From the NCBI RefSeq assembly GCF_001050195.2, contig NZ_DF967965.1, positions 1,505,150 through 1,569,149 of the forward strand: a stretch of 64,000 nucleotides of DNA, given 5' to 3'. Source of the DNA: Anaerolinea thermolimosa (lineage in GTDB: Bacteria > Chloroflexota > Anaerolineae > Anaerolineales > Anaerolineaceae). Every line of letters starts with the position of its first letter. The first letter of the stretch is position 1. Of this stretch, positions 25,248 through 60,416 are shown in pieces. Below the pieces are notes generated by a model, which saw only the letters and a program-made list of their open reading frames with translations, ran no database searches and had not been told where the DNA came from. The position numbers and the translations under genes are program-made.

Positions 25248-25390
25248 TTTTTATGGTGTTTGTCCCATATCTGGTTGGTTTTTGATTGCTTGCCACATAT
25301 GGTGATAAAAAGTTGTAAATCAGGCAGATTTGCCCCCATATGTGGGGTTTCAAAAGTCGCCCACCATTTTTAGGACAGACACTTTTTATG
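25248..25390 (+). mobile_element. MITE-like element, copy 1, with 8-bp target duplication
   Basis: The element is 25256-25382 (127 bp). It begins GTGTTTGTCCCA and ends TAGGACAGACAC, an imperfect 12-bp terminal inverted repeat. The direct repeat TTTTTATG flanks it exactly (25248-25255 and 25383-25390). It is too short to code for a transposase. An internal inverted pair, CCACATATGG (25293-25302) and CCATATGTGG (25336-25345), could form a hairpin. A copy differing at three positions lies inverted at 60283-60409. The 323-bp space 25206-25528 between the DRTGG gene and hisS otherwise holds only a possible hisS -10 box (TAAAAT, 25500-25505). Confidence 0.88.
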
Positions 25391-25528
25391 ATCATCATTT
25401 TACCGCAAGAAAATGAACCTCGGGGTCATTCAGAACTATGTAATCCAATATTAAGATGCCCTCTAAAAATCAACGCCTCAGCCAGAGAACGAGATGTGTT
25501 AAAATACCTCGGGAATGGAGCGTTTATT

Positions 25529-59497: not shown

Positions 59498-60205
59498 TCA
59501 CTCAAAAGTTTGCCTTCTGACAGATGGAGCCCTTGCCTGAAGCAAATCAGCATGCTCAAGCAAAGCCCGGTAACCCCGGTCTACTTCGCCTTGCCGGATG
59601 GCTTCAACCATCTGACGATGGTAATTCCAGACCGTCTTTAAGTAATGAATGTCTGTATAGAGAGCCAAACCAACCGCCTCATACAAATCCCAGTAAGCTT
59701 CCAGAATCCCAAAAACAAAAGGATTTTCCAGCCGTTTGAAAATAGTCAGATGAAGTTCCCGATGCTCAGGGTGTGGAATCTGGGGGGGATCGCTTGACAA
59801 TTTTTCTTCTGCCTTTTTCAGCAGACATTCCAATACCTCAAGATCATTTTCCGTTAATAAAGAGACCGCCTGATACCAGTAGGCGGCCTCGATGTGGGTT
59901 CGTAATTCAGCAAATCGGCGGAAATTTCGTTCATCCACCAGCATGGCATAATTCAAGCTATGGATGACTGCCGGCTTAAATGAATAACTTAATCGGCGAA
60001 TGCCTGTTTTCGGCTTTACCTCCACCACACCCAGGGCTCGAGCTACTTCAAGCTGCTCTCTCAAGCTCGCCAGGCTAACCCCTAATTCTCGGCTGATTAC
60101 AGAGAGTGCCGGTAATCGTTCTCCATCCGAGAAATGGGTAGCCAGATATATCAAAAAAGGAGAGAAGTAATCCGAAAAGGGTTTTTCGCCAGAATAGCTA
60201 GCCAT
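59498..60205 (-). CDS. GntR/FadR family transcriptional regulator
   Basis: A 235-aa regulator. Residues about 25-75 hold a winged helix (DGERLPALSVISRELGVSLASLREQLEVARALGVVEVKPKTG), and 100-225 an all-helical FCD effector domain (FAELRTHIEAAYWYQAVSLL, HRELHLTIFKRLENPFVFGILEAYWDLYE, YHRQMVEAIRQGEVDRGYRALLEHADLL) with metal-ligand histidines HREL and HRQM. FCD regulators sense carboxylic acids. It lies 19 bp upstream of korA on the same strand, so it probably controls its own operon in response to an organic acid. Confidence 0.9.
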   Translation of the reverse strand: MASYSGEKPFSDYFSPFLIYLATHFSDGERLPALSVISRELGVSLASLREQLEVARALGVVEVKPKTGIRRLSYSFKPAVIHSLNYAMLVDERNFRRFAELRTHIEAAYWYQAVSLLTENDLEVLECLLKKAEEKLSSDPPQIPHPEHRELHLTIFKRLENPFVFGILEAYWDLYEAVGLALYTDIHYLKTVWNYHRQMVEAIRQGEVDRGYRALLEHADLLQARAPSVRRQTFE

Positions 60206-60275
60206 ATTTAATCAGTTTAATCTGTTTAATCGTAACAATACTTTAGCACGGACAATTCATAATGTCAAGATGCAT

Positions 60276-60416
60276 TCATGATGTGTTTGTCCCAAAAATG
60301 GTGGGCGACTTTTGAAACCCCACATATGGGGGCAAATCCGCCTGATTTACAACTTTTTATCACCATATGTGGCAAGCAATCAAAAACCAACCAGATATGG
60401 GACAAACACTCATGAT
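60276..60416 (-). mobile_element. MITE-like element, copy 2 (inverted), with 7-bp target duplication
   Basis: The element is 60283-60409 (127 bp), in opposite orientation to copy 1, with only three base differences. Its ends are a perfect 12-bp terminal inverted repeat, GTGTTTGTCCCA and TGGGACAAACAC. TCATGAT flanks it directly on both sides (60276-60282 and 60410-60416). It lies in the 245-bp gap between the GntR gene (upstream of its start) and the M20 hydrolase, which otherwise holds no gene. Confidence 0.9.

Follow-up and report, generated by a model that had tools for sequence, protein, structure and literature searches.

A small 127-bp MITE family in Anaerolinea thermolimosa and its probable partner insertion sequence

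Type II bacterial MITEs, as described in PMC10969869, are elements of less than 500 bp that carry no genes and are bordered by terminal inverted repeats and direct repeats. Similarity to a partner is limited to their ends, their transcripts have a stable fold, and they are mostly intergenic; the element reported here shares all of these features. It differs from the MITEs described there in its modest copy number (nine) and in the lack of an internal promoter-like site in the two copies of our window. A search of the literature by title and abstract opening found nothing on MITEs of Anaerolineae. Another described repeat, ERIC (enterobacterial repetitive intergenic consensus), is 127 bp long and palindromic. 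It shares length, palindromic form, and intergenic location with our element; however, ERIC occurs in other bacteria and has another sequence, whereas the MITE described here has clear target duplications.

The window analyzed is a stretch of 64,000 nucleotides from contig NZ_DF967965.1 (positions 1,505,150 to 1,569,149). In the initial annotation, a sequence near its end (copy 2) was said to match the reverse complement of 25256–25382 (copy 1) with three substitutions, and to be flanked by a TCATGAT duplication, with a terminal inverted repeat that is perfect over 12 bp. We confirmed the match by comparing the two copies, and the repeat and the duplication were both verified from the sequence. 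The features are as follows.

60283 to 60409, plus strand: MITE copy 2 (L001), 127 bp, read from the window, the repeat search, and the genome copies
60283 to 60294, plus strand: left terminal inverted repeat of copy 2, 12 bp, a perfect match to the right repeat
60398 to 60409, minus strand: right terminal inverted repeat of copy 2
60276 to 60282 (left) and 60410 to 60416 (right), no strand: target site duplication TCATGAT of copy 2
60320 to 60329, no strand: inner inverted repeat arm CCACATATGG of copy 2, pairs in RNA folds
60363 to 60372, no strand: inner inverted repeat arm CCATATGTGG of copy 2, pairs in RNA folds
25256 to 25382, minus strand: MITE copy 1 (L008), in the opposite orientation, identical to copies L007 and L009
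25248 to 25255 (left) and 25383 to 25390 (right), no strand: target site duplication TTTTTATG (8 bp) of copy 1
60240 to 60268, minus strand: promoter-like site of the gntR-type gene, outside the element, a consensus match only

The element is shorter than 500 bp, has terminal inverted repeats and a target site duplication, and is present in dispersed copies. No ORF of at least 80 amino acids lies inside the 127 bp, which ORFs merely enter, so that it has no coding capacity. The 12-bp repeat is perfect in copy 2 only; in each of the other eight copies, one end carries one or two mismatches. The element represents a genuine small MITE family, ordinary in kind, with a probable partner.

The whole-window repeat search returned this single inverted pair, with arms of exactly 127 nt that are 98% identical. 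The similarity halts exactly at the element ends, and therefore the pair does not belong to any larger repeat. The genome-wide copy count, which had been proposed as a check, put the number of full copies at nine, spread over contigs C1, C2, and C3 (4.17 Mb in six contigs searched), and an additional match of 26 bp was the end of an insertion sequence. Pairwise, the nine copies differ at 0–4 positions; copy 1 belongs to a set of three identical copies, and L002 and L003 are also identical. This low divergence suggests that the MITE spread recently. Our results document a small, probably recent MITE spread and its probable source for a genome of an Anaerolineae family, and alter no general idea. 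A piece of an insertion sequence ends 19 bp away from copy L004 (C1 near 916400). Copy L006 (C3 near 98400) is located between a recombinase-like gene and a DUF4007 gene, which is followed by an ATPase-like gene (the recombinase-like and ATPase-like genes were named by eye).

Exact direct repeats of 6–8 bp were present at the edges of seven of the nine copies, 8 bp being the commonest length (L002, L003, L006, L007, and L008); copy 2 alone had 7 bp and L005 alone had 6 bp. Among 127-bp control windows taken from the flanks of the nine copies, an edge repeat of at least 6 bp occurred in 7 of 20,562, versus 7 of 9 for the real copies. No edge duplication of note was found at L004 and L009, and a comparison by eye of the flanks of these two copies, for exchange, gave no match. 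When the element and one copy of its 8-bp duplication are removed from L003, the alignment of the remaining sequence runs unbroken through the site in three congeners (G004, G002, and G003), which is an empty site; in the fourth, G005, the alignment reached the downstream gene only. The MITE had no match in any of the four congeners, and for both window copies the congener matches end on either side of the intergenic gap, which gave no exact empty site at these two.

The initial annotation had also asked for an autonomous insertion sequence with the same ends. An end-pattern search and the stretches it pointed to revealed four loci in the same genome (L041, L043, L044, and L048) with both MITE-like ends; the readable pieces of their interiors encode parts of a transposase. 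Exact 8-bp duplications border L044 and L048, and none was found at L041 and L043. The L043 transposase pieces are 72% and 59% identical to the transposase of L052, an element from an Ornatilinea MAG (same contig as L073). L052 is 1211 bp long, has an 8-bp duplication, CTGTGTTT, and contains a single ORF of at least 150 amino acids, which encodes 348 residues. As a set, the four own-genome elements span 1609, 1636, 1936, and 2480 bp, the 1.21-kb relatives being shorter.

Of the 13 loci from other genomes, 5 showed the two ends together with an exact duplication of 8 bp, all measuring 1211–1215 bp. The readable relatives were L052 (= L073) with 1211 bp, L057 (= L076) and L074 with 1215 bp, and L077 and L079 with 1212 bp each. 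L075 has both ends and starts at the first base of its contig, where the duplication is untestable; the remaining seven loci showed no convincing pair of ends. The insertion sequence ends read GTGTYTGTCCC or GTATCYGTCCC. Ten of the 13 loci come from records named Anaerolineae, Anaerolineales, Ornatilinea, Longilinea, or Bellilinea, and one from a Chloroflexota record. L074 and L075 are on two short contigs, one bearing the name Lentimicrobiaceae and the other Geobacteraceae; these outlier records could reflect transfer between phyla or mis-binning. Relatives of the partner transposase at an E value of 1e-20 were found in 11 of 147 genomes, several of the matches being fragments or about 25%–34% identical. 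A 23-base end pattern scanned against the genome collection gave no match, nor did the comparison of the partner group with plasmids.

To compare polarity, we used ten insertion sequences with both ends, namely, six of the 13 loci from other genomes and the four from the same genome. Over bases 12–26, the left end of the MITE was nearer the transposase-stop end than the start end in all ten, and its right end was nearer the start end in nine, with one tie. When bases 1–26 were used, the left test again gave 10 of 10, and the right test was weaker, with five for, two ties, and three against. In a BLAST comparison with one own-genome element, the similarity was confined to about 26 bp per end, and MITE bases 27 to about 97 had no match to that insertion sequence, so descent by internal deletion has no sequence support. 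Judged by its sequence, the element is a type II MITE, since the similarity to its likely partner stays at its ends.

It is very likely that the MITE is moved in trans by a transposase of the 1.21-kb insertion sequence group of Anaerolineae. According to this model, a transposase made elsewhere would recognize both ends of the gene-less MITE and insert it at a new site, where gap repair would leave a short duplication, usually of 8 bp. The enzyme would come from the 1.21-kb group, each end of which matches its counterpart in the MITE. Weighing against this model are the two copies without an edge duplication, the unmatched MITE interior, and the greater length of the own-genome elements. The action of the partner transposase on the MITE in trans, the recency of this movement, and the DDE chemistry of the enzyme are our inferences.

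From the nine MITE copies and two relatives we built a covariance model, which matched 5 of the 147 family genomes, that of A. thermolimosa among them. The best match outside came from G053, where an element of full length, with 74% identity at the DNA level, shares its contig with a partner-group insertion sequence. Of the weaker matches, L121 has ends that resemble those of L070, a distant insertion sequence of the A. thermolimosa genome, and L122 has ends that resemble those of L077 and L079. There are hints, with one example each, that every insertion sequence group may have its own miniature.

The presence of two near-identical inverted copies within one window is in line with a segmental duplication or an inversion of a chromosomal block, but the similarity ends exactly at the 127-bp borders, the flanks at the nine copies are unrelated, and the congeners have an empty site. 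We regard the probability of such an event as negligible and rejected it, as the flanks and the repeat ends rule it out. The proposal in the initial annotation of an independently inserted mobile family, as opposed to a segmental duplication, is borne out by the nine copies, their differing duplications, the empty site at L003, and the insertion sequences with the same ends. The evidence that it named as contrary did not appear: there is no longer duplicated block, and the duplication is present when L003 is compared with the empty site of three congeners. A structured RNA or palindromic regulatory repeat of the host (ERIC/REP-like), kept for its function and with mobility as a secondary property, would fit the folding of the element over nearly its full length (four folds, with z-scores of −5.0, −6.0, −3.9, and −4.4), the one inner pair that is changed on both sides and yet still paired in the 74% identical relative from G053, and a length equal to that of ERIC. 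On the other hand, no Rfam family matches the element (the Rfam scan of the window detected a tRNA and nothing else), double-sided changes occur in just 2 of 35 pairs, and the covariation term of RNAalifold is unfavorable (+1.26). Moreover, the absence from all four congeners, together with the terminal repeats and duplications, indicates transposition, and we consider a functional host repeat improbable.

Movement of the MITE by a different transposase is also doubtful, with little chance of being correct. An example would be the distant group with ends GTGATCGTTCCA represented by L070, which resides in the same genome, has a 7-bp duplication, and encodes a transposase that shares 28% identity with the one from the preferred group. 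However, each L070 end has 3 bases unlike those of the 12-base MITE tip and lacks the subterminal bases of the MITE, and in G053 the miniature L121 has ends like those of L070, which suggests one miniature per group. L070 is found on C1 near 1052000, and its duplication is TCGAAAC.

The partner transposase of the 1.21-kb group is the less ordinary part of an otherwise ordinary MITE system. It passed the Pfam model DDE_Tnp_IS66 with 41.9 bits (cut-off 23.1). All eight transposase members scanned match the same five NCBIfam models, and the scores of the first of the eight fell below every cut-off: 66.9 bits versus 180 for IS66 (NF033517), 60.4 versus 240 for ISH6 (NF041731), 53.6 versus 180 for ISL3 (NF033550), 37.2 versus 150 for the IS256 Zn variant (NF048019), and 38.3 versus 125 for IS6. 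Members of the IS66 family have GTAA ends and carry tnpA and tnpB as accessory genes; the partner has the GTGTYTGTCCC or GTATCYGTCCC ends and, in L052, a single ORF. The IS66, ISH6, and ISL3 families make 8-bp duplications. The partner has this duplication length and a DDE-type transposase in common with them, but differs in its scores, which are far below the cut-offs, and in having one 348-aa gene, a size of 1.21 kb, and GTGTYTGTCCC ends. An invariant C-Q-F-H motif follows the second acidic residue and precedes the last E; C/DxxH motifs occur in several DDE families. The search of the PDB with the transposase gave no useful match (best E 0.009), and the structure model was poor (mean pLDDT 53).

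As a tentative and, taken as a whole, rather unlikely reading, the partner may be an undescribed insertion sequence family, mainly of Anaerolineae, characterized jointly by its 1.21 kb, single DDE transposase, GTGTYTGTCCC ends, and 8-bp duplication; by the N-terminal cysteine cluster and the CQFH motif before the last E of its transposase; and by a palindromic miniature of about 100–150 bp with matching ends in each subgroup. The probable source group has no name in the curated NCBI models, and its description aids the annotation of a poorly studied lineage.

Copy 2 is located upstream of a gene for an FCD-domain regulator (59498–60205), at a distance of 77 bp, and 41 bp past an M20 peptidase gene; the regulator gene is followed by two genes for 2-oxoacid oxidoreductase subunits. 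The gap that holds copy 1 separates two divergent genes, a DRTGG gene and hisS. The placement of both copies upstream of minus-strand genes, as the initial annotation stated, holds for the FCD regulator/2-oxoacid oxidoreductase genes and for DRTGG; nevertheless, in its divergent gap, copy 1 is also upstream of hisS. We found no promoter-like site wholly inside copy 1 or copy 2, and the sites counted (1 and 2) were near the shuffled mean of 1.0. At copy 2, the sole minus-strand site (60268 to 60240) sits between the element and the gene; being on the gene side, it was probably left in place. At copy 1, a weak site (9/12) would take its first hexamer, GGGACA, from the element end and the second from the flank. 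The suggestion in the initial annotation that the copies may alter expression gained no support here. An effect of the MITE on the expression of its neighbors is possible, and the strong predicted fold, in which 2 of 35 pairs have double-sided changes, makes RNase processing or termination at the element conceivable.

The longest hisS reading frame begins inside copy 1 (window positions 25340–25528). The domain match starts at residue 73 of that frame, so the true hisS start probably lies further downstream, and on the same ground copy 1 was also read as intergenic. With a crude gene caller, five of the nine sites were outside ORFs; counting copy 1, the intergenic sites were 6 of 9 versus 8.3% of non-ORF sequence, which gives a probability of 2e-5 (crude caller, one window; L004 not judged). 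L002 is at a predicted start, and L003 lies within about 30 bp of a gene end.
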